A stretch of DNA of 64,000 bases from IMG/VR virus record IMGVR_UViG_3300048694_001005, positions 62,001 to 126,000 of that record. One strand, 5' to 3'. This DNA is from a virus. Below, piece after piece: positions 1 through 63,351 of this stretch. How positions within the stretch are numbered: position 1 is the first letter of the stretch; the number at the start of each line of letters is the position of its first letter. A program made the translations under genes and the position numbers. A model generated the notes under the pieces. That model worked only from the letters and a program-made list of their open reading frames with translations, had not been told where the DNA came from and made no database searches.

Positions 1-810
1 ATGTATGGCATCTGGTATTGTTTCTTTTATTGCTTTCAGTATTAATTTTTCTGCTTTTGAAACAGTAATTCCTTTAGTTAACTTTAAACGATTAATTCTA
101 GACTTTTCTTCTGCGGATTTGGAATTTAAGGTGCCCTGCCATTTATTTTGTCGATCTTGCCAAATCTTCATCCCCTCATTTTCTCCATATTTTTGTACGC
201 ATATTTCTTTTGAAAAATATTTTTGCGAGTTTGACAACATGAGTGCTGACTCTTCTGCGGAATATCCCCTAGCAGTATAGTATTCAATACATCGAGGTGA
301 TGAAACTCGATGTAAGTTTGATCTAGATTTTTTTTCGGCACCTAATTTATTATTGGACCTTTTCGTTTCTTTAGCTAATTTAATAGCTTCTTCAAGAGAA
401 AATCCTTTGTTGATCCAATACTCTTTCCTAATCGGCCTTCGACTATTTCTTTCTTGATCAGCTTCGTCCTCGGTATAGTTTTTTCCGGTTATGGGATTGA
501 TCTTGTTAAGCCAAAAATTTCTGCTATAAACACTACACGGATTCCCTGATTTATGTTTTTTGGCCTTTATATGCGACTCCTCATAGGTCCAGCCTCGTGA
601 TAACCAATAAGATTTTGTGCGTGGCGCAGCATTGGTTGTTAGGTTTAATTTTTGACGAATGAATTGCTCAATAATTTTCTTGTTGTTTTCAATTTTGATA
701 CTCAACAAGTCGACTAACAATTTTTGATACAGATCAGGATTTAAATTTTTGATAGTTTGTTCCATTACTTCTTGACAATTAACTTTGAGTTCTTTGTTCC
801 AGCGCGGCAT
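1..810 (-). CDS. Free-standing homing endonuclease inside fractured gp46 (partial, runs off window)
   Basis: The frame is open for 270 codons from an ATG at 808-810 to the window edge, so the C-terminal part is not seen. The start lies inside the coding end of the upstream gp46/intein fragment, in another frame, and has its own ribosome site (AGGAG about 8 nt upstream). The protein is basic and shows three helical repeats of the type YW-x-(S/N)-(R/K)-G-(W/F/Y)-x-x-EE-A, at about residues 69-85, 130-145 and 195-208. A KYGENEGMKIWQDRQNKW block follows near residue 225. I associate these features with phage homing endonucleases of the Vsr-like (EDxHD) class; that is family knowledge recalled, not searched. 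The catalytic domain would lie beyond position 1. Its likely role is to cut gp46 alleles lacking the insertion. Confidence is good for a homing endonuclease and lower for the exact nuclease family. Confidence 0.72.
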   Translation of the reverse strand, partial: MPRWNKELKVNCQEVMEQTIKNLNPDLYQKLLVDLLSIKIENNKKIIEQFIRQKLNLTTNAAPRTKSYWLSRGWTYEESHIKAKKHKSGNPCSVYSRNFWLNKINPITGKNYTEDEADQERNSRRPIRKEYWINKGFSLEEAIKLAKETKRSNNKLGAEKKSRSNLHRVSSPRCIEYYTARGYSAEESALMLSNSQKYFSKEICVQKYGENEGMKIWQDRQNKWQGTLNSKSAEEKSRINRLKLTKGITVSKAEKLILKAIKETIPDAIH

Positions 811-892
811 TATATAATTCTCCTATAGTAAGTTCCATAACTTCACCGGTTTCGGTGTTACGAACTTTAACTAAAGTATTTATCCCAACACA
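779..892 (-). other. Split-intein N-fragment (37 aa)
   Basis: This part runs from Cys1 to the stop codon. It begins C-V-x-x-x-T-x-V-x-V and continues with TGE...TIGELY, as expected for intein motif A and the following strands. It ends well before any block B (TxxH). Such a short N-fragment resembles the atypically split inteins known from viral metagenomes (for example AceL-TerL, about 25 aa). The insertion point after the P-loop Lys leaves a Ser or Thr as the likely +1 residue of the C-extein, a favoured site for inteins. The C-fragment is not in the window. Confidence 0.75.
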
Positions 893-1048
893 TTTACCCG
901 TGCCATTGCGAGCACCAGCATCATCACCGCCTAGATCTAAGTTTTCCCCCAGCACCAGTGTTAGGTCCTGGCGATTGAAGTCAATAGCTTGTGTGACATT
1001 ACCCACACTTAGGAAGTTCTTTACAGTGAGATTCTTAACTTTGAACAT
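779..1048 (-). CDS. 46: gp46 recombination nuclease subunit, N-terminal fragment fused to a split-intein N-fragment
   Basis: Residues 1-52 are the start of a T4 gp46/SbcC-type ATPase (the large subunit of the gp46/47 recombination and DNA-processing nuclease), ending exactly at a Walker A motif, ARNGTGK. Instead of the expected Ser/Thr, residue 53 is Cys (codon 890-892) and the sequence becomes CVGINTLVKVRN...TIGELY, which looks like intein block A. It stops 37 residues later. The fragment cannot be a working ATPase alone. The simplest reading is N-extein plus N-intein of a split intein, with C-intein and the rest of gp46 encoded beyond the window after the endonuclease. The ATG overlaps the gp47 stop (TAATG), so gp47 and gp46 are translationally linked. 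The alternative is a gene broken by endonuclease insertion, but the intein-like residues make that less likely. Confidence 0.82.
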   Translation of the reverse strand: MFKVKNLTVKNFLSVGNVTQAIDFNRQDLTLVLGENLDLGGDDAGARNGTGKCVGINTLVKVRNTETGEVMELTIGELYNAALEQRTQS

Positions 1049-2061
1049 TATAGGTTCCTATAGATATCTAGCAGTATCTTTTTATCAAAGTGTTCGCTTT
1101 CAATACTAGTAATTTGATTTGTGACAATTTGATCCACACTTTCAAACGTGATCTCGGCAGCGCCAGTCATGTCTGATAATTCTGTTTTCTTAGGCGGGAT
1201 TAATGTAATCTCACGCAGTTGAAACTGATCCACAAATGTTTCTTTGAGATAGTTAGCTTCTTCATAGCTGAGATCAACGTCTAAATTGATACGCACATGC
1301 TGCCGTGGTTTGAGTATCGCACTGGGATCAGCTACGATATCACTGAGTTTAGCCACCAAATAAGTGGGTTGATCGGGCCAACTATGAAATACTGGATCTT
1401 CGCCCCAGGGCAGTATCATGACACCACGTTCAGCATCGCCTGCATCGGCGTAATTATGTGGGAAGCAATTACCAATATACGTAATGTTGCGTTCTGATTG
1501 TCGTTTATGGAAATGCCCGCTGAATACGTGCCCTATATGCCCAAGGTGTTCACGGCGTATTTCACCATGCTCTGGCATCTGTACCATTGCATTCATGTAA
1601 AAGTGTGGCAGCTCAAAGTGACCAAACATATACTGAGCATTAATCTTCTGCAGTCGTTTGTGGTCATCACCCACTAGCCAAGGTACAATACTGACGTCGC
1701 CTTCCTTAAAGAAGTCATTTACGATAGTGATATTGTCAATATGTCTAGCCCACTCAACACTTTGAATGTCGCGCTTGTCTCTATAGTAGAGATCGTGGTT
1801 GCCAGGAATAAAAAACACACGATTAAAACTTTGGCTCATTAACTCTAAACAGCGTAAGCTATAATTAAGAGTCATGATATTGATACTGGCGCGATTATTG
1901 TGGTAATCGCCCAGGAATAAACAAGTATCACAATCGTTTTGGCGCCCCAGCTCGCAGGCCCAGTTTATAAATGCTAGGCAATCTTCATTGTGAAGTTTAC
2001 TGTTAGATTTTAAGCCAAGATGCAGATCTGTAAAAACAATAGCACGTTTAAATAAATTCAT
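1048..2061 (-). CDS. 47: gp47 recombination nuclease subunit (SbcD/Mre11-like phosphoesterase)
   Basis: At 337 aa this is nearly the length of T4 gp47 (339). The metallophosphoesterase motifs are all visible: D12-L-H14, G51-D-x-H54, G87-N-H-D90, H148 in GHFE and G182-H-F-H185. It should form the nuclease of the gp46/gp47 complex, which processes double-strand breaks for recombination-dependent replication and, in T4, helps degrade host DNA. It lies just downstream of gp55 and its stop overlaps the gp46 start by one base. The ORF is intact, unlike gp46. A sigma70-like element sits directly upstream, so it may be expressed before the late genes. Identification is firm. Confidence 0.95.
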   Translation of the reverse strand: MNLFKRAIVFTDLHLGLKSNSKLHNEDCLAFINWACELGRQNDCDTCLFLGDYHNNRASINIMTLNYSLRCLELMSQSFNRVFFIPGNHDLYYRDKRDIQSVEWARHIDNITIVNDFFKEGDVSIVPWLVGDDHKRLQKINAQYMFGHFELPHFYMNAMVQMPEHGEIRREHLGHIGHVFSGHFHKRQSERNITYIGNCFPHNYADAGDAERGVMILPWGEDPVFHSWPDQPTYLVAKLSDIVADPSAILKPRQHVRINLDVDLSYEEANYLKETFVDQFQLREITLIPPKKTELSDMTGAAEITFESVDQIVTNQITSIESEHFDKKILLDIYRNL

Positions 2062-2956: not shown

Positions 2957-3004
2957 TCAATAGGTTCTCCTTATATGTACTTAATACTAGCACATTTTAG
3001 CAAA

Positions 3005-3012
3005 AATAAATA
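3005..3012 (+). promoter_or_regulatory. T4-type late promoter -10 (AATAAATA) before gp48
   Basis: AATAAATA, one base from the T4 late consensus TATAAATA, lies 26 nt upstream of the gp48 ATG in the divergent gap after gp55. It probably drives the baseplate operon. Confidence 0.6.
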
Positions 3013-3038
3013 TATAAAACAAGGGTTTACTACAATTT

Positions 3039-3950
3039 ATGCCAGAAAACTTTACAATTACAAACGATGACGACGGCAATCCGTTGCCAACAACACAACC
3101 AGCAACGGATCAACCTGGCGCGTTTAGTACCAGTGGAATTTCAAATACGCTGAAAAACTTCGCTAGTGGTGCACGTAATTTAATGGGCGATCAAAATGGT
3201 CTACTGGGTAGTTTGGGTAGACTGGCTGGTATAGGTATATTGTCGGGTGGCAAATCGCCAAATAAAAAACAAAACGTAAACATAGCAGATGTCGCCACAC
3301 CAATCTTAGACCAGGGGTTATCCTATGATAAAGACTGGCGTGTTCGTTTATTATTGCCAGATGGGCTAGCGGGAGAATTGTATCAACTGGATCTATTAAA
3401 ACCCCTGGGCGGTGGACAGGATGATGGCAGTCAAGTTTTCCGCGGTGTAATTTTTCCATATACTCCTAACATCACAGTTACCTATGCTGCGGATTGGCAA
3501 GCTCAGAAGCTAACACACAGCAACTATGCGGCACAATTCTATAACAGTAGCGAAGTACAGGACATACAAATACAGGGAACATTTACTGCCCAAAATCAAG
3601 CCGAAGCAGAATATCTGCTGGCAGTTATGACCTTTAGCAAGTTAATAACAAAAATGTTTTTTGGTGAAAGCAGCAATGTAGGAAATCCGCCACCTATTAT
3701 GCATCTATATGGACATGGTGAATATCAATGGAATCGTGTGCCAGTTATAGTAAAGAACGTTCAGTACTCTTTATCGCCCGATGTAGATTATATGCCAGTA
3801 TTACGAGACGGCAAGCCCATAGCCAGAGTACCTACAATAGTAGAAAGCTTTTCTTGGACCGTCGCACCGGTATACAGTAGAAAACAAATGAGCACTTGGA
3901 GTTACGAAAAGTTTGCAAGCGGCGAATTGATTAAAGGGGGATTCATCTAA
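3039..3950 (+). CDS. 48: Baseplate tail-tube cap protein, gp48-like
   Basis: The 303-aa product starts the baseplate operon. Residues 1-80 are a low-complexity, Gly/Ser/Asn-rich N-terminus. The rest is a beta-rich domain with EVQDIQIQGTFTAQNQAEAEYLLAVM followed by FSKLITKMFFGE. This resembles the T4 gp48 segment in which a beta strand leads to EDLMAIINIYQYF. In T4, gp48 sits on the baseplate hub and, with gp54, nucleates tail-tube polymerisation. The stop overlaps the next ATG, and gp53 and hub genes follow, which supports the role. A gp54-type assignment is possible, but a better gp54 candidate lies at 55525. Confidence 0.7.
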   Translation: MPENFTITNDDDGNPLPTTQPATDQPGAFSTSGISNTLKNFASGARNLMGDQNGLLGSLGRLAGIGILSGGKSPNKKQNVNIADVATPILDQGLSYDKDWRVRLLLPDGLAGELYQLDLLKPLGGGQDDGSQVFRGVIFPYTPNITVTYAADWQAQKLTHSNYAAQFYNSSEVQDIQIQGTFTAQNQAEAEYLLAVMTFSKLITKMFFGESSNVGNPPPIMHLYGHGEYQWNRVPVIVKNVQYSLSPDVDYMPVLRDGKPIARVPTIVESFSWTVAPVYSRKQMSTWSYEKFASGELIKGGFI

Positions 3951-4249
3951 TGGCCACATATTCAAAAGCAAGTCCCTATTATTCTACTGGTACATATGGT
4001 GGATACTTAGACGTATTAAATTACAGATCCTTTCCAGCACAGCCTGATGATCAAATTATCACTTTAACTGAATCATATAGGAATAGACCAGATTTGTTGG
4101 CATTTGACCTGTATCAGGATTCACGTTTGTGGTGGGTATTTGCAGTAAGAAATCCCAACAATATAAAAAATCCTGTGTTTGATTTTGTACCTGGACGTAA
4201 AATTTATGTGCCCAAGAAAGAAACTTTAACTACAGCACTGGGATTGTAA
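3950..4249 (+). CDS. 53: Baseplate wedge protein gp53-like
   Basis: This is a 99-aa protein with the gp53 signature DLLAFDLYQDSRLWWVFAVRNPN, followed by a short beta-rich tail with a LysM-like pattern (GRKIYVPKK). T4 gp53 is longer (196 aa) and joins wedges around the hub, so this would be a minimal version. The ATG overlaps the gp48 stop and the stop is directly followed by the hub gene. No membrane segment or signal is visible. The identification rests on the motif and position. Confidence 0.8.
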   Translation: MATYSKASPYYSTGTYGGYLDVLNYRSFPAQPDDQIITLTESYRNRPDLLAFDLYQDSRLWWVFAVRNPNNIKNPVFDFVPGRKIYVPKKETLTTALGL

Positions 4250-4250
4250 T

Positions 4251-7200
4251 ATGACCGTGGATAGAACCAAAGCGGAGCAAAGTGCCAAGTACAATACTGC
4301 TCAAGCGGCGCTTAATGAACAACAGAGTATATTAAATGGAGATCAAAAATTCCTCCAACAAGCAGAAAAGAGATTAAACACAGCAATTTCTCAAGGTGTT
4401 GATCCATTAACCAACCAGCCGTTAACACCGGAATTACAGCTCAAGCTTCAACAAAATGTCGACACACGCAAAGCCACGGTACAGGAATCACAAGCATCTG
4501 TGGCAGCGGCCCAGCAAGATTTTAATCAAGCCAAAGCTAACTACACACCTCCACCAGCAGAGACTGCCACAGAGACACCTAAACAAAGTGTAGCAGACGC
4601 TCCGCAGCCTGCTGCGTCTGGGTCACTAAACGAAGAAGAAAAAAACAATTTAAACTCAGCTAATAAGCAACCCCAAGATGAAGTTCCAGCACGGATAACC
4701 ACTTTTGATGCTAATGGCAATGAGATAACGCCGGAAGAGGAACAGGCCAATCAAGCTGACACTGATAAATCCAATGACGAAGTAAAACAGTTATCCGAAC
4801 CTGTCAGTGACAATATAACAGCTAGTTCTGCAGGCACCAAAGAAAAATCAGATACGGTAACTATTAATCCTATACCAAACTTGTTACACGGCTACTCTAC
4901 CTACACATACAATATTAGCTTGCATATTTTACCCATAGATGCGTATGATGAAATGCAAAAGACTGGCAAATATGTTGTAGATAGAAACAGAGTTTTAATT
5001 GCATCTGCAGGCAGGCATAATGATCAAACCTTTGCAAGAAATCCTTACTGGACTGAAGATTTCTATTTTGACAATCTGCATTTTTCTACGGTTATGGGTT
5101 TTAATTCCAGAACCAAAGGTAGTAATGCAATTACATTAGATTTTACAATAATTGAACCTTATGGTATAAGTTTACTAGATCGATTAATTAAAACTTGTGA
5201 CGATTATGTGGACATAAGTGGTGAAAAAAAGCCTATAGAAAATTATATAGCAGTGCCATACATGTTGCAAATTGACTTTTTTGGATACAATCAAGACTCA
5301 CATGAACCAAAGTTGATAGAAAAAGCAACAAAAAACATAGCTATTAGATTATTGTCTATGGACATGAGCTTCGATGCAAAGGGCACATTGTATAAATTTT
5401 CAGCAGTACCTTATAATCATTCTGCATTTAATGAATTGAATCTAAATTTACCGTCGCTAACAAATATAAAATCAAAGGGCACAGTTGAATCCTTTTTTAC
5501 TTCGGACCAAGAAGACATTGAAACAGAGAAATTACTAAAACAAATAACAAGTACAGAGAAAGGTGGAATTCAAGATAATGTACGCGAGCAGTTTAAGAAA
5601 AGATATAAAGATGATTATAAAACAGCTCAAGAAACACAACAGAAAAAATTAGAGGAATGGAAAAAGAAAAATCCTAAACTATCGGCTGAAATTGACAAGC
5701 CCACAGGCACTATTGTGATTGAAGAACTTAAAAAGAGTAACTACCCGCGCCCGGTGCCAGCAATAGATGATGCTACCTTGGAAAAGAACGCGGAAGAAAA
5801 GTGGAAGGAACAATCAAGTAATTCAGCCATTTATGCTACAGAAGTAAATGCGGGCGGTCTGGGTGTTGCCTTAAACACATACCAAAAATTCATTGCGAAA
5901 GAATATAACCTGTTAGACGGCAACGGTGCACCAATATTATATAAATTTAGCTTTGATCCAGAGATAGGCCAAAGTACAATTAATACTAAACTTCTAACTG
6001 ATCACAGCAGAAAATCACCCAAAGCAGATGCGCCGGTTAAAGCTACGGCCGAAACGGCCACCCCAACATATCCACCTGCACCTGCTACAGGACAAATTGT
6101 AGGTTTTCAATCCAATGCCGGCGGAGCAGCCACGGGAGTGATACGCGCACCTAGACGTGCAGCTTCTGCGGGAGGATCTAATACGCCGCCCGCAGGGGGC
6201 TCTTACGTAGCAGTGGCTAGAGAAATGCTACAGAAGGAAGAAGGATTACCTAAAGGCGGCAAAGCGTATTGGGATCCTGCCGGCCAAAATGTCCTAGTAT
6301 CCATAGGCTATGGTCATCAAATTCAAAAAAATGAATATGATCAGGGATTTATTCAAGCAGGTGCTGAGCAGATTAAAATTGTTGGTAATAGAGGCATAGA
6401 CACTGTATTAACAAAGAATCAAGCGGGTGCTTTGCTAGAGTTGGATCTTCCTAGATATTCATCAAGAGCCGCGGGGCCTTTGGGAAGTGCTGCGTGGGCC
6501 AAGCTGAATGATAACCAAAAAGCAGCATTAATTAGTTATGCCTACAACACTGGTAGTACCGAAAGCTTGGTAAATAATGGAATCGTTGATGCCATTAACA
6601 AGGGAGACTTCACAAGTGCTGGACAAATTATTGCACAAAAAGGTATAAGAACTGCTAATGGAAAAATATTGCCAGCACTGGTTCGTAGAAGAGAACACGA
6701 AGGATCATTATTTTCTTCGGGTGTCACCAATACGAACTCGGAACCGCAAACCCAAACACCAACCCCCGATTCATTTAATACTGCCGCATCTAGTATAGAC
6801 ACCTCTGTAGACTCTGATCAATTTATTTCGTTTCAGCAAGGCACTAGTGTAATAGAAGTTATTAACACTATAATGAAAGCATCGTCTTATATACAAGATC
6901 AGTTGCAATTAAAACTTGACGAAGCAGGAGCCGGCGATGATGCTGAAAAGAAAGCAAAAGTTGAAAGAGAGTTTGAACCCTACAACCACTTTAAAATTAT
7001 TCCAAAAGTGGAGCTGGGTAAGTTTGATCCTGTGCGTAATGACTACACTAAAATAATTACGTTCTTTATCAAAACCTACAAGGTCAAAGGATTGCGTTTT
7101 CCGGATATTAAAAAAGGAACACGCCCTAGGGATATAGATTGTGTTAAACAATACAATTATTATTTCACTGGAAAAAATACTGATATTTTAGACTTAAAGG

Positions 7201-8327
7201 TTAGTTTTGATGCCCTATTTTATACTGCGATGTCGGCTAGGTCACAGCGGTTCCAACAGGCAACAATAGATCAAGCCAAAACAGATCCCCCCAAAGTGGG
7301 CGGAGACTCTGCACCAAATGCAACCATTATCGCTAAACATTCAAAAACTTTACCGGCGTCTTTGCAGTTCGTTCCTAATATTATGGGTAACAATAAGCTT
7401 ACACAGGAAAGTGTTGAAGCTATCAGAGCAAACGATCTATTTGGAAATTTGTATGGTAAGTCGCAGGCTGATATGTTGACTTTAGATTTTGATATTGTTG
7501 GTGACCCCTGTTATATACAGACAGAAGAATTTACGTTAAATCCCGACAGAAAAGATGATTATCTAGACAAAACAGATGTGCGAGTATTTGACAATGGTAG
7601 TTTGGTAATTAATGATGGCGATCTATTCGTTAAAGTGGAATTTAGACTACCCTTAGATATTGATACCACAACAGGACTATACAAATTTGAAGATGGGGAT
7701 CTACGGAAAAGTAGTAAAGATAGTAGCTTCTTTACTGGTATATACAAAATTCTGACAATTGATCACACGTTTCAAGGTGGACAATTCAAACAAAAGTTAC
7801 AAACGGTACGGGTCTACAACGATCCACAAACCTTAGAAAAAGATAATCAAGGTGCTCCTGATCCTAACAGGGACGGGACTACAGGTGAACTTATGGGTCC
7901 ACCTGCACCGGTAAGCTCAATTAGTCAAACTAATAGTAATACAGAGGCAGCAAGTGATGCCCAACTACCTAGCCCAGATCTGCTTCCAACACCTAATCCG
8001 TTACCACAAGTACCACCACTGCCCAGTGTATCACAAGTTAGCACAGCTAGCGGTACTGCAACAACTACAATATCTGGAGACGGAACAGTAACTACGGTAA
8101 CATCCACAGTTACGGAAACGGTTACGGGCGGCGGCTCAACTACAACTACCGCAGTCTATGATGACAAGGGCAATGTAGTTGGCGTTAACAAAGTTTATGA
8201 AGCTGCACAACAAGCAGATAGAAATGCTGTGATTGCCAAGGCGCAAACACTGAACATACAGGAATTAGAAAATTTGAAGAAATCACGAGTGGGTAATGAG
8301 AGCCCAATCCAGGAAGGTGATTGGTAA
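4251..8327 (+). CDS. Large baseplate hub protein with embedded T4-type lysozyme (GH24)
   Basis: The 1,358 aa fall into: a Gln/Ala-rich coiled coil and low-complexity linker (1-210); a hub-like beta domain (about 210-420, starting NLLHGYSTYTYNI); a charged helical linker (430-530); a GH24 lysozyme (about 651-823); a second hub-like domain (about 850-1200); and a Thr/Ser/Pro-rich tail. In the lysozyme, E664, D675 and S684 align with T4 lysozyme E11, D20 and T26, within KEEG...WDP...SIGYGH. The protein thus joins hub structure (gp27-like, inferred from position before gp5) with a peptidoglycan-cutting domain that T4 places in gp5. It would act in the periplasm during DNA injection. The gp27 relationship is inference; the lysozyme domain is clear. 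Confidence 0.78.
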   Translation: MTVDRTKAEQSAKYNTAQAALNEQQSILNGDQKFLQQAEKRLNTAISQGVDPLTNQPLTPELQLKLQQNVDTRKATVQESQASVAAAQQDFNQAKANYTPPPAETATETPKQSVADAPQPAASGSLNEEEKNNLNSANKQPQDEVPARITTFDANGNEITPEEEQANQADTDKSNDEVKQLSEPVSDNITASSAGTKEKSDTVTINPIPNLLHGYSTYTYNISLHILPIDAYDEMQKTGKYVVDRNRVLIASAGRHNDQTFARNPYWTEDFYFDNLHFSTVMGFNSRTKGSNAITLDFTIIEPYGISLLDRLIKTCDDYVDISGEKKPIENYIAVPYMLQIDFFGYNQDSHEPKLIEKATKNIAIRLLSMDMSFDAKGTLYKFSAVPYNHSAFNELNLNLPSLTNIKSKGTVESFFTSDQEDIETEKLLKQITSTEKGGIQDNVREQFKKRYKDDYKTAQETQQKKLEEWKKKNPKLSAEIDKPTGTIVIEELKKSNYPRPVPAIDDATLEKNAEEKWKEQSSNSAIYATEVNAGGLGVALNTYQKFIAKEYNLLDGNGAPILYKFSFDPEIGQSTINTKLLTDHSRKSPKADAPVKATAETATPTYPPAPATGQIVGFQSNAGGAATGVIRAPRRAASAGGSNTPPAGGSYVAVAREMLQKEEGLPKGGKAYWDPAGQNVLVSIGYGHQIQKNEYDQGFIQAGAEQIKIVGNRGIDTVLTKNQAGALLELDLPRYSSRAAGPLGSAAWAKLNDNQKAALISYAYNTGSTESLVNNGIVDAINKGDFTSAGQIIAQKGIRTANGKILPALVRRREHEGSLFSSGVTNTNSEPQTQTPTPDSFNTAASSIDTSVDSDQFISFQQGTSVIEVINTIMKASSYIQDQLQLKLDEAGAGDDAEKKAKVEREFEPYNHFKIIPKVELGKFDPVRNDYTKIITFFIKTYKVKGLRFPDIKKGTRPRDIDCVKQYNYYFTGKNTDILDLKVSFDALFYTAMSARSQRFQQATIDQAKTDPPKVGGDSAPNATIIAKHSKTLPASLQFVPNIMGNNKLTQESVEAIRANDLFGNLYGKSQADMLTLDFDIVGDPCYIQTEEFTLNPDRKDDYLDKTDVRVFDNGSLVINDGDLFVKVEFRLPLDIDTTTGLYKFEDGDLRKSSKDSSFFTGIYKILTIDHTFQGGQFKQKLQTVRVYNDPQTLEKDNQGAPDPNRDGTTGELMGPPAPVSSISQTNSNTEAASDAQLPSPDLLPTPNPLPQVPPLPSVSQVSTASGTATTTISGDGTVTTVTSTVTETVTGGGSTTTTAVYDDKGNVVGVNKVYEAAQQADRNAVIAKAQTLNIQELENLKKSRVGNESPIQEGDW

Positions 8328-57895: not shown

Positions 57896-58489
57896 ATGAA
57901 ATCACTAACCCATTACCTAACCGAAAGTGCAAGAACCTACAGTTTTAAAATAAAGATTGCTGTAGATAGCCTAACTGATGAACAAATTGATGCTATAGAG
58001 CAACAACTACAGGCATACAAATTGGTCAACATAAGCAAACCAAAACGACTGCCCATTCAACAAAATCCCTTGGGTTTTGAACATTTGGGTGCTGTTACTG
58101 TACAAGCTATGGAAGCTGAACTAGCTTACCCAGCAACTGATGTACAGGTAAAAGAAGCTGTAAGACTGGGTTGCAAATGTGCTGGCAATCACATTTATGT
58201 TGGTAGCGAAGCGCAAGAGCAAGATACTGTTCGTTTAGACCTGGACGAAAAAGATGGCAAGCCCATACTAATGCAGGATTATGATAAAAGTGATCCCAAA
58301 GTAAAAGAACTTTATGGTGATGAAAACATTAAGATCATACTAAAAGATTTTGACAGCAAGAAACGCAAGTATGAATTTGAAGTAGTTAACAACACCGAAG
58401 CAAAAAGCACGAATGATTTACCGCAGGGTAAGATGAGTCCTGTTGGCAGTACGCAAAACAAGATTCCAGACCCATATAAGAACCGTTAA
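57896..58489 (+). CDS. Candidate internal head protein (197 aa) with capsid-targeting-like N-terminus
   Basis: The start is ATG at 57896, supported by its ribosome site; a longer frame into the terminase gene is not. It begins MKSLTHYLTE-SARTYSF, so L8-T-E10 fits the gp21 cleavage rule. The next part (FKIKIAVDSLTDEQIDAIEQQLQAYKLVNISKPKRLPIQ) is an alpha/beta fold similar to proteins I recall from aquatic T4-like phages. The C-terminus (GKMSPVGSTQNKIPDPYKNR) is short and basic and echoes the endings at 48271 and 48640. Function is unknown; packaging into the prohead is inferred from the N-terminus and the genes around it. Confidence 0.65.
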   Translation: MKSLTHYLTESARTYSFKIKIAVDSLTDEQIDAIEQQLQAYKLVNISKPKRLPIQQNPLGFEHLGAVTVQAMEAELAYPATDVQVKEAVRLGCKCAGNHIYVGSEAQEQDTVRLDLDEKDGKPILMQDYDKSDPKVKELYGDENIKIILKDFDSKKRKYEFEVVNNTEAKSTNDLPQGKMSPVGSTQNKIPDPYKNR

Positions 58490-58500
58490 GGACCTGTACC

Positions 58501-60159
58501 ATGAAAATGATAAACGTATTGAACAAGCTAACTGAACTAAGCAAAGAAAACACCAGTCCCGATGTCAAACAGGCCCTGGAAAGTACACGTAAGATAAATG
58601 GTGATGCTAACCTACAGGTCATTGAAGAACACATCGTGGAAGGTCGCATTGACGATTTGAACGATCGTCGCGCAGCTAAAAAACGCAAAAGCAAAAAGCA
58701 CAAAGACAAAGCTGGCACCAAGGAAAAGCCACGTATGGTCAAGGGTCATCGTTATGGTGGTAGCAAACAAAAAGATGATGATGACAGAGAAGATTTGGAT
58801 GAAAGCGATGAGCTAGCACGCCGCGCTGATTTACGCGCCAAGTCTGGTGAAGGTATTTTGACTAAGAGAAAATATGGTCCTGAATACAAAGCTCACATGC
58901 GCAATAAAAAGAATTTAAAGCAGGATCCTTACAAGATTGCTGGACCAAAAGGTGCATTGCCCGAATCAGAAGTGCAAGAAGTAATCACTAAGAAAACACC
59001 TGCTGGTGAGATCATTAGTGATTTCCAAAAGAGCAAGAACCCAAAGTTTAAGGGTAAGAGCAAAGCCAAGCGCAAGGACATGGCGCTGGGAGCATACTAT
59101 GGCATGCATCCCGAAAAAAGCAAAGTTAAAGAAACAGCAATGACACCCAAGCAAAAGAAATTCGCAGCATTAGCAAAGCCTACGAACAAAATTACCTATG
59201 CTGACAAAATTGCTGGCGCACGTAAGAACACTGGAGTAAAAGAAACTAAACTAACACCCAAGCAAATGAAGATTGCTAAAGCAGCCAAGCCAACCAATGC
59301 AATTACCGGTGCTGATTTTGCAGCATTGCGTAAGGGACGTAAAGTTGAAAGCGCATTAGTTCGTGAAGGTACTGAGCGCAAAGCTAAAAACCTAACTGAA
59401 AGCAAAATGATCACAGAGACCAATGATTTGGTTGACTTGAGAAAACTAGCTGGCTTAAATGAATGCGGCATGATGGGTACCACAATGGGTGCACATACAC
59501 CAGCAAACATCAGTATTAATGCAAGTGCAGCCAGCGGCAGTGAAGTAGCCAGCATGATGCGTGACTTGATGCGTTTAGCCGGTGGCGAAACTTCGGCACA
59601 TGTGCCCGAGATTGCAGTAATGGATGGTGCAGCCTGCGGTGGTATGGAAGAAATGGTGGATGAAAGCGAACAAGACGGACACTTTGCTGATGCTACCACA
59701 GAACCAGCAGAGCAAGTATTTGACGAGAATCCAGTTGTTTCAATGACTGGTAAACAAGTGCAAACACCCAATGGTAATGCACGTCAAAACGACAATCCAC
59801 TAGAAGAAAGTCTTTGGAAAAAATACCAAGCACAGGTAAACGAAGGATTCGATCCTGAAAGTTTTGAAGGCAGCACAGATGTAACTTGGATTGGTGACGA
59901 TGGTGAAGAAGTGGAGGGATATGTAAATTATATCGCTACACCTGATCCACAAACCGGACATTTACATGTTAAGTTAACTGGTGGTGCTGTAACTGGTAAC
60001 AATATTGCTGCTAAAGTTGACGATCACATGATTCAGTATCTAATCACTGATCCAGACTACAGTGCGGAATATCAACAGGCTGCTGAACAGGATGCACAAG
60101 CACAGTGGGACTCACGTGACGCTAAACAGCACGACTTGGGCGATCCAGCAGCTATGTAA
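58501..60159 (+). CDS. Lysine-rich candidate head-core/internal protein (552 aa)
   Basis: It begins MKMINVLNKLTE-LSKENTS, again with an L-x-E site (10-12). The first 290 residues are extremely basic with KKRKSKKHK-type stretches and two 37-residue tandem repeats. The second half is acidic and ends in a small beta domain (STDVTWIGDDGEEVEGYVNYIATPD). Further I/L-x-E sites occur inside (HIVE-G, NLTE-S, MITE-T, GLNE-C), so it could be cut into pieces like T4 core and internal proteins. No enzyme motif is visible. It is 11 bp downstream of the preceding gene. Scaffold, core or DNA-binding internal protein are all possible. Confidence 0.65.
   Translation: MKMINVLNKLTELSKENTSPDVKQALESTRKINGDANLQVIEEHIVEGRIDDLNDRRAAKKRKSKKHKDKAGTKEKPRMVKGHRYGGSKQKDDDDREDLDESDELARRADLRAKSGEGILTKRKYGPEYKAHMRNKKNLKQDPYKIAGPKGALPESEVQEVITKKTPAGEIISDFQKSKNPKFKGKSKAKRKDMALGAYYGMHPEKSKVKETAMTPKQKKFAALAKPTNKITYADKIAGARKNTGVKETKLTPKQMKIAKAAKPTNAITGADFAALRKGRKVESALVREGTERKAKNLTESKMITETNDLVDLRKLAGLNECGMMGTTMGAHTPANISINASAASGSEVASMMRDLMRLAGGETSAHVPEIAVMDGAACGGMEEMVDESEQDGHFADATTEPAEQVFDENPVVSMTGKQVQTPNGNARQNDNPLEESLWKKYQAQVNEGFDPESFEGSTDVTWIGDDGEEVEGYVNYIATPDPQTGHLHVKLTGGAVTGNNIAAKVDDHMIQYLITDPDYSAEYQQAAEQDAQAQWDSRDAKQHDLGDPAAM
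59128..59349 (+). repeat. Two 111-bp tandem repeats in the lysine-rich protein
   Basis: Units 59128-59238 and 59239-59349 encode KET-x-(M/L)-TPKQ-(K/M)-K-(F/I)-A-x-x-AKPTN-x-IT and a basic tail (residues 210-246 and 247-283). Protein similarity is clear; DNA similarity is partial, so the duplication is old or under coding constraint. Confidence 0.8.
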
Positions 60160-60636: not shown

Positions 60637-63351
60637 ATGCATGTATTAGATTTATTTGGTGAAGAGTCGCAGCCGTTAAATGAGGGTTCGGTAAAGAATA
60701 GAGATATCGAGCGTCAAGACTATGAAAACATGTCAGGACGAGAATTTTTGGCGGCTTATAAAATGGGCAAAGCAGAATGGGCGCTTAAAAACCCTGACAT
60801 TGTGCCAAAAAAATCTAAACCCAAAACCACCAACGAAGCTAAACCTGTGGCACATAGTATTGAACATGCTGTTTGGAGTAAAAAGTCCCCTGATGAACAA
60901 AAGTTTTTGAAACAGTTGCATCCCGACTTAAAAATCAAAAACGTACCACCAGCACCACGTCCTGAGCGAGTTAAAAAGACACCAATTGATTACGCCGCTA
61001 TTGCGCGTAAAGCCGAGAATGTCTGGGGCAATATATTTCCTGATGGCGATCCCGTAGATTGGATGTATCCGTATTTAAAACGCATGGGTATTCCTGCTGA
61101 AAAGCAATACAAGGTATTGGATCGAGCTATTAGATTGCATGTAGACAAAAAAGGTTATGATCATTGGTTGGAATCAAGCTGGGATCAAGTAGCTGACGAC
61201 AATATGATGCCAGGTACGGTTACTCGTGAAAATAATCCATGGCGAGTTTCTGAAGGTGTGACAGAAAATAGCGGAGACACAAGGGCTAAACTGGCCAAAA
61301 TCATTGCACGTGAAATGAAGACAGCAAAGTCCAGTGAGTTGACAAAGACACAACGCAAACACGCATTCGCGGTACTAACACGCGCCAAAGAAGCTAAACG
61401 TATGTTGGATGCTGGTGCAGATGAATCCACAGCATGGGCACACTTCCAAGGTACCAAGCAGGAAATGGCGGAAGGCAAATGGTTCCGCACCACTTATGGT
61501 TGGGCCGGTGGTGAGAAGCCTGGTGGCGGCAAATATGTTCATCCTGAGGTCGCAGCCGAACGTCGCCGTGAAAAAGCCAAGAAAAAGCGTGAACAGGAAC
61601 GACAAGCAAAGTCAGGTACAGGTGCCAAACCTACTACCAGTACACATTGCCCGGGCTGTTACAGTACCGATATCAAAACCTACAGTGATGGTGAGAAAGA
61701 ATGCCATCAATGCGGTAAAACTTGGCATGTTTTTGGAAATAGAATTTTTATAGATCATCAGGGCGAATGGGAGGAGAAAATCAGTAAAGTTTGGCCAAGA
61801 TCACAGATAGAATACTCCGGCGAAGATATGTATGCCGCTCGTCTAACAAATGGTTATCTCGTAGGAGCATTCAAAATAGATCAAGGTGGTTGGATAGAAA
61901 AGCCAAGGAAAGGTGTGGCGGAAGGCTCCAAAACTCCTTGGAAAGATTTAGATAAACCTTTTGACCGAGATGTTAAAAAAATGAAAAACCAAGGCAGCGC
62001 CAATCCATTGTACAAAAAGAAGGTTGGTGAGCAAGGTGTGGCGGAAGGCTCGGCGTATCAACATCATGTTGTATCAAAATTAGATGGCAATGTATTGGCT
62101 TCTTATAAGACGCGAGAAGAAGCTCAGAAAAATGCTCATGGTAATCCAGTTGTTTCTGGTTCTTTAGAGACCATTGGTGATAGACAATATACCAGAGAGC
62201 AAGGTGTGGCGGAAGGCTATTGGCAAGATGCCATACAGGATGTGGAAGCAGCACGTAAAGCACGTAAAGGCAAACCGTTTGAAAAGAATCCGCTAAGCCA
62301 TGATGAACAGGGAGTTTACATCGGTGATAAGGATTTAGCTGGCAATCCTGTACCTAAACCCAACGAAAAGGACGTGGCAGAAGCTAAGCCAGGACTGTAT
62401 GCCAATGTACAGGCCAAGCGCAGGAGAATCAAACAGGGATCTGGGGAGCGTATGCGCAAGCCTGGAACTAAGGGCGCACCCACTGCACAAGCTTGGCGCG
62501 ATGCAGCAAAAACAGCTAAGAAGGAAAGCATGGAGGAAAACATGAAACTTGTTGAATATTTGACACGTCCCGGAGAATCATTTGACGCAATTTTAGGTCT
62601 TAATGTTTTCGCTGATCTAGTAGGTGATGTTCAAGACATGGATGAAATGTTTGGAGAAAGTAGAGAATGGCGCAGGATTAGAAAGAAATACACCAAGATA
62701 GCCAAATACTATATTGATCTAGTTAACCAAATTTCCGCCACAGGTAGAAAGCTGACAAAGGAAGAGTCAGACGCTATTGAAATTTGGTGGTATGATGGCA
62801 ATGATATGTATGATGATGAAGAAATGTCTGGATTGGCGGAAACATACGATGGCCAACTTAAATTAGTTGAAAGACTAATTGGATCAGGACAATCGGGAGT
62901 GACCGAAGATTTGATGAATGAACTGTCCCGAGACACGCTAAAGAGTTATTTTGGTAAACGCATGGCATCAGCCACGTCCATGGACAAACGCAAAAATTTT
63001 AAAAAGGCTACTAAAATCATCAAAACTAATTTACCACTTGCTATGAAAAAACTTAAAGATCCAGCGTATGGTAAAGCTACGCCCAAATTAGTTGATGAAG
63101 CTGCCTTACCAGAAGAACTGTTTAAGACTACATCAGAAATCAATAACCCAACTGATGCCGTAAAAATGGATATCCCTCTACTGATTAGAATTATGGAATA
63201 CGCACGTGAAGATGCCAAAACTGACTTAGAGCTGCATGATGTAGCAGAACGATTAATTAGTTTGGGCAAGGCAGGTAACACATTAAGCATGCGTGACTAT
63301 GATAAGATTGTTGGCACTGATGCAAAGGCAATGATCAATAACAAACTATGA
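60637..63351 (+). CDS. Modular candidate internal head protein with GVAEG-bordered cassettes (904 aa)
   Basis: It begins MHVLDLFGEESQPLNE-GSV, with L-N-E as a possible gp21-type site. Six borders of the form (G/D/M)-V/M-(A/T)-E-(G/N/A) lie near residues 207-210, 277-280, 426-430, 467-471, 523-527 and 579-583; three are the identical GVAEG. The pieces between them differ in length (about 40-150 aa) and content: a helical basic block (211-276), a piece with a zinc-ribbon (C338-x2-C341-x14-C356-x2-C359), and short cassettes. The last third (about 640-904) is a helical domain starting MKLVEYL. No enzyme is recognised. A polyprotein of packaged peptides or DNA-binding modules is my inference. It overlaps the next gene by 4 bp (ATGA). 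Confidence 0.7.
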   Translation: MHVLDLFGEESQPLNEGSVKNRDIERQDYENMSGREFLAAYKMGKAEWALKNPDIVPKKSKPKTTNEAKPVAHSIEHAVWSKKSPDEQKFLKQLHPDLKIKNVPPAPRPERVKKTPIDYAAIARKAENVWGNIFPDGDPVDWMYPYLKRMGIPAEKQYKVLDRAIRLHVDKKGYDHWLESSWDQVADDNMMPGTVTRENNPWRVSEGVTENSGDTRAKLAKIIAREMKTAKSSELTKTQRKHAFAVLTRAKEAKRMLDAGADESTAWAHFQGTKQEMAEGKWFRTTYGWAGGEKPGGGKYVHPEVAAERRREKAKKKREQERQAKSGTGAKPTTSTHCPGCYSTDIKTYSDGEKECHQCGKTWHVFGNRIFIDHQGEWEEKISKVWPRSQIEYSGEDMYAARLTNGYLVGAFKIDQGGWIEKPRKGVAEGSKTPWKDLDKPFDRDVKKMKNQGSANPLYKKKVGEQGVAEGSAYQHHVVSKLDGNVLASYKTREEAQKNAHGNPVVSGSLETIGDRQYTREQGVAEGYWQDAIQDVEAARKARKGKPFEKNPLSHDEQGVYIGDKDLAGNPVPKPNEKDVAEAKPGLYANVQAKRRRIKQGSGERMRKPGTKGAPTAQAWRDAAKTAKKESMEENMKLVEYLTRPGESFDAILGLNVFADLVGDVQDMDEMFGESREWRRIRKKYTKIAKYYIDLVNQISATGRKLTKEESDAIEIWWYDGNDMYDDEEMSGLAETYDGQLKLVERLIGSGQSGVTEDLMNELSRDTLKSYFGKRMASATSMDKRKNFKKATKIIKTNLPLAMKKLKDPAYGKATPKLVDEAALPEELFKTTSEINNPTDAVKMDIPLLIRIMEYAREDAKTDLELHDVAERLISLGKAGNTLSMRDYDKIVGTDAKAMINNKL
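61910..62218 (+). repeat. Three identical 18-bp repeats at module borders (AAGGTGTGGCGGAAGGCT)
   Basis: Copies at 61910-61927, 62033-62050 and 62201-62218 are identical, including all third positions; the last two extend to 22 bp with GAGC in front. Spacing is 123 and 168 bp. A fourth relative (ATGGCGGAAGGC, near 61465) and two weaker ones (near 61252 and 62371) mark other borders. They are far richer in G+C than the surroundings. Confidence 0.92.

Follow-up and report, generated by a model that had tools for sequence, protein, structure and literature searches.

Fractured genes, as Dassa et al. reportedly described them in 2009, are conserved enzyme genes divided in two by an intein that is itself split, an independent endonuclease gene lying between the halves; eight enzyme types are said to be affected. 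We analyzed a locus of this layout in gp46, the gene for the phage ATPase of the Rad50/SbcC type that starts recombination, a process that homing elements need for their own spread. It lies at the left edge of the window, by which we mean the whole 64,000-nucleotide (nt) stretch under study (bases 62,001 to 126,000 of the 180,565-base phage record IMGVR_UViG_3300048694_001005 from IMG/VR), and is on the minus strand throughout. In all likelihood, the locus is a fractured gene in which a split intein interrupts gp46 between Lys and Thr of its Walker A motif, a Vsr-type homing endonuclease gene (HEG) occupies the break, the product is rejoined by trans-splicing and the HEG homes. As in the fractured genes described above, a split intein interrupts the gene of a DNA-metabolism enzyme, and an endonuclease gene of the Vsr-like family stands on its own in the gap; apparently unlike in those, the host gene is gp46 (SbcC/Rad50), the insertion is at Walker A and the break falls between intein blocks A and B. 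The locus adds a gp46 case to this known kind, with direct evidence of mobility and of HEG loss that leaves a bare split intein, and its interest lies in the homing footprint, the HEG-less forms and the host enzyme. Because the homing cassette sits in the ATP-binding loop of the ATPase, the host enzyme would work only if the element splices.

A break near the N end, a short N-intein (IntN) and a long C-intein (IntC) are shared with the atypically split inteins (AceL TerL, VidaL, Cat and PolB16 OarG; PMC10189870, PMC11923092 and PMC7891396; PDB 6vgv, 6dsl and 8cpn). Their IntN measures about 15 to 25 residues according to PMC11923092 and 15 residues according to PMC10189870, whereas the IntN of the window has 37 residues, belongs to gp46 and is followed by an endonuclease gene in the break. 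The extra length corresponds to a longer beta hairpin and a tail. VidaL gave the best sequence and fold match to the window's intein family, and TerL relatives occur within the same IntC family. The AceL NrdHF split intein likewise belongs to a fractured gene in a phage-like contig, with an endonuclease gene between the halves, but, according to PMC7891396, it is of class 3, is split at the typical site (98/48 amino acids) and involves a GIY-YIG endonuclease and nrdHF. In the cultured Aeromonas phage Aes123 (JN377899), open reading frames (ORFs) for an N-intein, a 'putative VSR endonuclease' and a C-intein each overlap the next, as here; unlike here, the host gene is PolB, and the endonuclease shares only its last ~83 residues with the window's HEG (36% identity). 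Finally, the contiguous TerL mini-inteins of Klebsiella phage Magnus (159 amino acids, annotated) and Vibrio phage VPALA belong to the same family, occupy the same P-loop site GK/TT (the slash marks the insertion point) and are 44-45% identical to IntC, but they are single chains without an endonuclease gene.

Organization of the gp46 locus

The N-terminal ORF of gp46 (positions 1048-779, 89 amino acids) reads MFKV...GARNGTGK, continues with CVGINTLVKVRNTETGEVMELTIGELYNAALEQRTQS and then stops. Its match to phrog_77 (SbcC-like; E-value 9.9e-7) covers residues 1-52 and stops at the P-loop Lys; these 52 codons (893-1048), ending in Walker A up to Lys, form the N-extein. The remaining 37 codons plus stop (779-892) are IntN, carrying block A with Cys1 and aligning with contiguous TerL mini-inteins. 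Inside the Gly-Glu codons of IntN lies the AGGAG ribosome site of the endonuclease gene (820-824), 9 nt before an ATG at position 810, and the two ORFs overlap by 32 nt in the IntN tail. The HEG, free-standing and in the +1 frame, encodes 366 amino acids; 270 of its codons are in the window (1-810), and the remainder crosses the window edge and runs 290 bases leftward to record base 61,710. We followed the locus into the left flank (L002, record bases 56,001-66,000; a window position is the L002 position minus 6000). There, the HEG stop is at 5710, and a third ORF of 667 codons begins at 5734, 25 nt inside the HEG end, and extends to 3731 (record bases 61,734-59,731). Its residues 1-123 are IntC, ending in ENMFDIAVNSDEHRYYTNGILSHN (...GILSHN), after which TTIANALSYGLFGN... 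continues to the end of gp46. This C-extein starts with Thr-Thr at residue 124, and its phrog_77 match spans residues 124-662 (E-value 1.8e-86). The two halves of gp46 share one frame, and uninterrupted gp46 relatives continue GTGK/TT across the insertion point.

Both the observation and the interpretation of the original prediction hold, with some amendments. It had gp46 ending at the P-loop Lys and followed by Cys and a short intein N-terminus, as the end of the phrog_77 match and the 37-residue tail bear out, and it placed in this tail a second gene with its own ribosome site, which the AGGAG at 824-820, the ATG and the overlap confirm. Left of the window, after the HEG stop, we found the ORF that it expected, opening with a C-intein (blocks B, F and G, His-Asn end) and continuing with Thr and the rest of gp46. 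The proposed fractured-gene layout with a split intein was also seen, and the same order of three ORFs recurs in the diverged phages L004 and L005. The embedded homing endonuclease fared less well: the protein is indeed endonuclease-like, with a Vsr/I-Bth0305I-like domain, but it is the product of a separate gene rather than a domain embedded in the intein.

The proposed mechanism is as follows. The overlapping gene cluster would yield three proteins, gp46(1-52)-IntN, the endonuclease and IntC-gp46(C). IntN and IntC would associate into a HINT fold and excise themselves, and splicing would join ...NGTGK to TTIANAL..., restoring the P-loop. The rejoined gp46 would be an active SbcC/Rad50-like ATPase working with gp47, and the endonuclease would cut intein-less gp46 alleles, whose repair would copy the whole IntN-HEG-IntC cassette in. 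Judging from the sequences, gp46 is very probably trans-spliced, where the original prediction, if right, would make this obligatory; cutting by the window's HEG and a loss of gp46 function without splicing would be expected.

A scan of viral contigs with IntC gave 75 loci, which together with L002, L004 and L005 made 78 rows, 47 of them unique by IntC DNA. Because IntC relatives are this numerous and the three-ORF order recurs in L004 and L005, the layout is beyond chance. By their first extein residues, with seven loci checked by PHROGs, the host genes of the 47 unique loci were gp46 of the window's type (gp46-A, 24 loci), a second gp46 type (gp46-B, 8), a TerL-like gene (13) and a DnaB-like helicase gene (2). 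One further IMG/VR contig (L086) is 100% identical to the window locus in the IntN, HEG and IntC proteins, and another (L003/L085) is 100% identical in HEG residues 169-366 and IntC, making a single misassembly unlikely. We rejected a frameshift or misassembly of one ORF, since highly diverged loci repeat the layout and one further contig matches exactly.

Identity and fold of the intein

The insert in gp46 is a class 1 mini-intein of 160 residues (37 + 123) broken between blocks A and B, which is an atypical split. Profile matches, the alignment with contiguous TerL mini-inteins and the VidaL-like fold of a relative, L088, support this assignment. A profile of three IntC sequences matched VidaL (E-value 3.8e-8), CatC (1.6e-5) and gp41-1 (9.8e-5) in the PDB. 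In the alignment with the TerL mini-inteins of phages Magnus and VPALA, IntN corresponds to their start and IntC to the remainder, and the break falls in the loop after their T-I/M-G-E-L/F helix. L088 is a natural relative without HEG, in which the halves are parted by one stop codon and one further codon. Its read-through model (that is, a model of L088 and not of the window's own chain) had a mean predicted local distance difference test score (pLDDT) of 85.5 and adopted a HINT fold whose best match was VidaL (E-value 1.6e-9), with a Z-score of 14.2 and a root-mean-square deviation of 3.0 over 137 aligned residues. We take VidaL to be an atypically split intein.

The catalytic positions are well kept. 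Every unique locus whose N side could be read (37 of 37) has Cys1 and Lys-1. The block B His, part of CADDH in the window locus, was found in 46 of the 47 unique loci (two read by eye), the other being cut by a contig end. IntC ends in GILSHN/T in the window, and Ser-His-Asn followed by Thr or Ser at +1 is found in 44 of 47, the other three again being cut by contig ends. These observations bear on whether the insert might instead be an RNA intron (group I or II) that carries the endonuclease ORF and is removed from the mRNA, its intein-like ends being coincidental. Endonuclease-bearing introns are well known in phage genes, and in most gp46-A loci the two halves are in frame with each other, as an intron would have it. 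Nevertheless, the ends encode Cys1, the block B His and SHN, conserved as protein, they are predicted to fold as HINT and are homologous to annotated contiguous inteins, and no Rfam family reached its gathering score over L002 positions 3000-8200, in a search that did not request weak matches. We therefore regard an intron as most implausible.

Two opinions of the original prediction on the intein had to be revised. An IntN of 37 residues is short by the usual standard of ~100, but other atypically split inteins are given an IntN of ~15-25 (PMC11923092) or 15 residues (PMC10189870), next to which it is not. Nor is the locus a lone addition to the few such inteins known, given the 75 viral loci with the same IntC family. 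For protein engineering, this family is also a source of numerous natural pairs that combine a short IntN with a Lys/Thr junction shaped by evolution.

The endonuclease gene between the halves

The C-terminal domain of the HEG product is predicted to be a Vsr/I-Bth0305I-like catalytic domain. A model built from 28 relatives had a pLDDT of 86.1 and a predicted template modeling score of 0.48, and its residues 247-366 aligned (VIA-align) with Vsr (1cw0, Z-score 11.4) and I-Bth0305I (3r3p, Z-score 10.8). The product thus resembles I-Bth0305I and the EDxHD Vsr-like homing endonucleases in C-terminal fold and in its E-x-x-G-D-x-x-H motif region, but, unlike I-Bth0305I, its sequence is too far away for a significant match, and it has an additional N-terminal part, for whose 250 residues no family was found. 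In the 28 aligned products, E294 is kept in 24, D298 in 19 (4 gaps), H301 in 24 (4 gaps) and D327 in 21; these are candidates for the catalytic E, D and H of the EDxHD motif. Relatives annotated as 'VSR endonuclease' are present in cultured phages, including the one inside the split PolB of phage Aes123.

Translation signals recur as well. A Shine-Dalgarno-like motif precedes 23 of 30 HEG starts and 23 of 37 C-half starts, compared with 585 of 8,600 ATGs at large, and the motif of the HEG is formed by the intein's own Gly-Glu/Asp codons. Of 31 measured loci, 29 have the HEG in the +1 frame, and in 21 the end of the HEG overlaps the C-half by exactly 25 nt. Across the window's HEG, the N frame contains 41 stops compared with 41.1 expected. 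In-frame readthrough between the halves of the window locus was rejected on account of these 41 stops. In the other 30 loci, the stop counts of L105, L131, L134 and L139 were reached by at most 3 of 1000 shuffles, although 36-41 stops remain.

A separate case is a TerL locus, L144 (IMG/VR 3300044729_002140, positions 3729-6776), where one frame is open from TerL-N via IntN, the HEG region and IntC to TerL-C. It has no stops (22.8 expected; none of 1000 synonymous shuffles was as low) and is the sole locus with none; its G+C content is 34.6%, and its HEG of 313 codons is read in +1. Its frames suggest a contiguous intein whose coding region is overprinted with an endonuclease gene.

Selection and endonuclease loss

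The ratio of nonsynonymous to synonymous substitution rates (dN/dS) was estimated for 15 pairs chosen by eye from 34 loci. It was 0.06-0.19 for IntC (12 computable pairs) and 0.17-0.34 for the HEG (9 pairs), showing that both are under purifying selection. For IntN, values of 0.12-1.21 came from 29 codons, too short to judge. Extein values were 0.05-0.13 in the seven computable pairs other than L139/L148 (TerL, 0.65).

The N side could be read in 23 unique gp46-A loci, and 4 of these retain IntN and IntC but have a broken or lost HEG. L088 has no HEG at all, in L107 a deletion has left 36 in-frame codons of it, and the gene is decayed in L109 and interrupted in L100. Decay therefore does occur, and one might read the whole locus in this way, with gp46 a pseudogene or two unjoined working chains and the intein halves decaying remnants of an invasion. 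The short C-extein ORF of gp46 in L106 (190 codons compared) would agree. We nonetheless consider this very unlikely, as the exteins have the low dN/dS given above, IntC is conserved even in loci without HEG, and a Walker A motif whose Lys and Thr are on separate chains should not bind ATP. The loci with a lost or broken HEG fit a history in which the endonuclease breaks the intein and the break persists after the endonuclease has gone. Taken together, the sequences form a dated-looking series (contiguous intein, intein with HEG, decayed HEG, bare split intein) that bears on the origin of atypically split inteins.

Mobility of the cassette

The cassettes of the gp46 loci L090 and L093 differ at only 3 of 1,536 nt, while the gp46 flanks are 71.6% identical upstream (587 nt) and 68.4% identical downstream (1,115 nt); the first differences outside the intein are at -7 and +6. 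Similarly, L125 and L126 differ once in 1,491 nt, with flanks of 90.0% and 77.6% identity and first differences at -16 and +12. Such a pattern is the footprint expected of endonuclease-driven repair that copies the whole fractured intein, and the L090/L093 alignment argues firmly that an entire cassette moved between diverged gp46 genes of related phages. Both sides were available for 60 of the 78 loci, and 83 pairs passed a k-mer filter; of these, 17 were flagged (~4 independent comparisons), 61 were alike throughout and 5 were neither. In a gp46 tree, which was made by a quick method and has several long branches, fractured and intact alleles were interspersed; at least 5 changes are needed, and well-supported branches force at least 3 of these. 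The tree contained 76 uninterrupted gp46 (from the best 80 of >600 matches) and 22 of the 24 unique gp46-A fractured loci, L106, L122 and gp46-B being left out. In alignment A7, only the top row includes the initial 23 residues of IntC.

For the window phage itself, the fracture may be real and the intein spliced while the HEG no longer homes and the cassette is inherited vertically. Among the 60 loci compared, none combines a close relative of its intein with diverged flanks, and HEG and C-extein distances correlate (r 0.85, 19 loci), both of which favor such inheritance. On the other hand, the HEG ORF is full length and has a ribosome site, and cassettes of this kind have recently moved in L090/L093 and L125/L126. 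On balance, we find vertical inheritance unlikely, yet serious enough to keep in mind.

A broader account of the family seems to us evenly poised between right and wrong when all its parts are taken jointly. The family would be mobile as an already fractured unit of IntN, Vsr-HEG and IntC, landing between Lys and Ser/Thr of gp46 and TerL P-loops. The HEG would enter the A-B loop and use the Gly-Glu codons as its ribosome site, and its loss would leave a bare atypically split intein, as in L088, L107 and L109. Atypically split inteins would then be scars of endonucleases at a second site, distinct from the canonical one.

Several points weigh against a fractured gp46 that is rejoined by trans-splicing and carries a homing HEG. 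The support so far comes from sequence and predicted structure. The footprint was seen in related loci and not in the window's own, and two pairs have none: the unit of L131/L134 is less alike (86.4%) than its flanks (88.8% and 90.7%), and that of L109/L110 equals one flank. IntN is short and its dN/dS noisy, and the Thr of block B (TxxH) is replaced by Ala in the window locus. Curated intein models scored below their cut-offs: PF14890 (cut-off 35.8 bits) gave the C-half 16.3 bits and the L088 read-through 32.7, and TIGR01443 (cut-off 15.6 bits) gave the C-half 14.1. In the intein profile comparison advised by the original prediction, the IntC profile did match VidaL, CatC and gp41-1. Since the annotated intein of phage Magnus also scores below the PF14890 cut-off (34.2 of 35.8 bits), this cut-off misses the family. 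As for the endonuclease, the sequence match to Vsr is weak (E-value 0.42, behind two unrelated chains), mitoribosome RAP-domain chains come near to a tie with Vsr on the HEG domain (Z-score 10.2, VIA-align), and Foldseek gave no match under an E-value of 0.001 for the HEG model (Vsr-like fold probability 1.00, E-values 0.16-0.27). One gp46, one IntC and one HEG of the IntC-associated type were found in the record; the intact second gp46 that would have spoken against the original prediction was not found in its 180,565 bases, although the record may be incomplete.

Distribution among phages

Fractured forms of gp46 were in the minority. Among the best 80 of >600 matches in a scan of viral contigs with the gp46 C-part, 76 had an uninterrupted GK/T P-loop, 3 had a C-intein (one being the same phage) and 1 was cut. 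The IntC profile found no relative in one-genome-per-species contigs (83 pattern stretches, none confirmed), and no fractured gp46 was seen among cultured phages in the best 40 of 2,890 records or in the 40 best plus 60 spread of 330 records. In an open-access library of papers, we found none joining gp46 and a split intein, papers pairing SbcC/Rad50 with an intein being left unexamined. Counterparts in cultured phages that are open to study are the RecA of Pseudomonas phage MIJ3 and the PolB of Aeromonas phage Aes123.

Neighboring genes and related elements

Directly upstream of gp46, the gene for gp47, the SbcD/Mre11-like nuclease subunit (1048-2061, minus strand; phrog_100 E-value 2.3e-55, Pfam Metallophos E-value 1.4e-7), overlaps the gp46 start by 1 base. 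Close downstream, with one 61-amino-acid ORF between, is a SegE-like GIY-YIG endonuclease gene (E-value 2.9e-30; L002 2376-3440, record bases 58,376-59,440), which places homing-type endonucleases within gp46 as well as next to it.

In the cultured jumbo phage Pseudomonas phage vB_PaeM_MIJ3 (L166, 1552-4558), recA is fractured. An 81-amino-acid ORF ends in ...FAGESG/CLPETAKVKIRLSKKQS, with an IntN of 17 residues; a Vsr-type endonuclease ORF comes next, and then the annotated RecA ORF, which opens with a C-intein ending in SSHN/SGKS. For this phage, the accessible part of PMC6892783 mentions only a PolB intein. Two loci of the IntC family in DnaB-like helicase genes, L155 and L158, have the insertion a few residues before the P-loop Lys (HN/TNAGKS and HN/TGMGKT), not after it. 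Gene 539 of Salicola phage SCTP-2 (L084, 1918-4683) carries a contiguous intein at the same GK/TT site of gp46. This is a different intein, with Ala1, DEHLW, a Cys before block F and a weak LAGLIDADG signal (E-value 0.044), and by its motifs we take it to be class 3-like. In the same phage (L164, 2504-3397), the TerL C-part opens with a C-intein of the window's family (47% identity), and a second IntN-like stretch at 3110-3205 in the same ORF looks as if TerL were fractured twice. The TerL C-extein of L139 (5373-6272) has, beside its TerL match, a further homing-endonuclease-like stretch (phrog_314 E-value 6.2e-41, residues 125-277). Caulobacter phage Cr30 (L165, 2027-3049) has an isolated HEG relative, separated by 46 bases from the uninterrupted TerL gene downstream of it.
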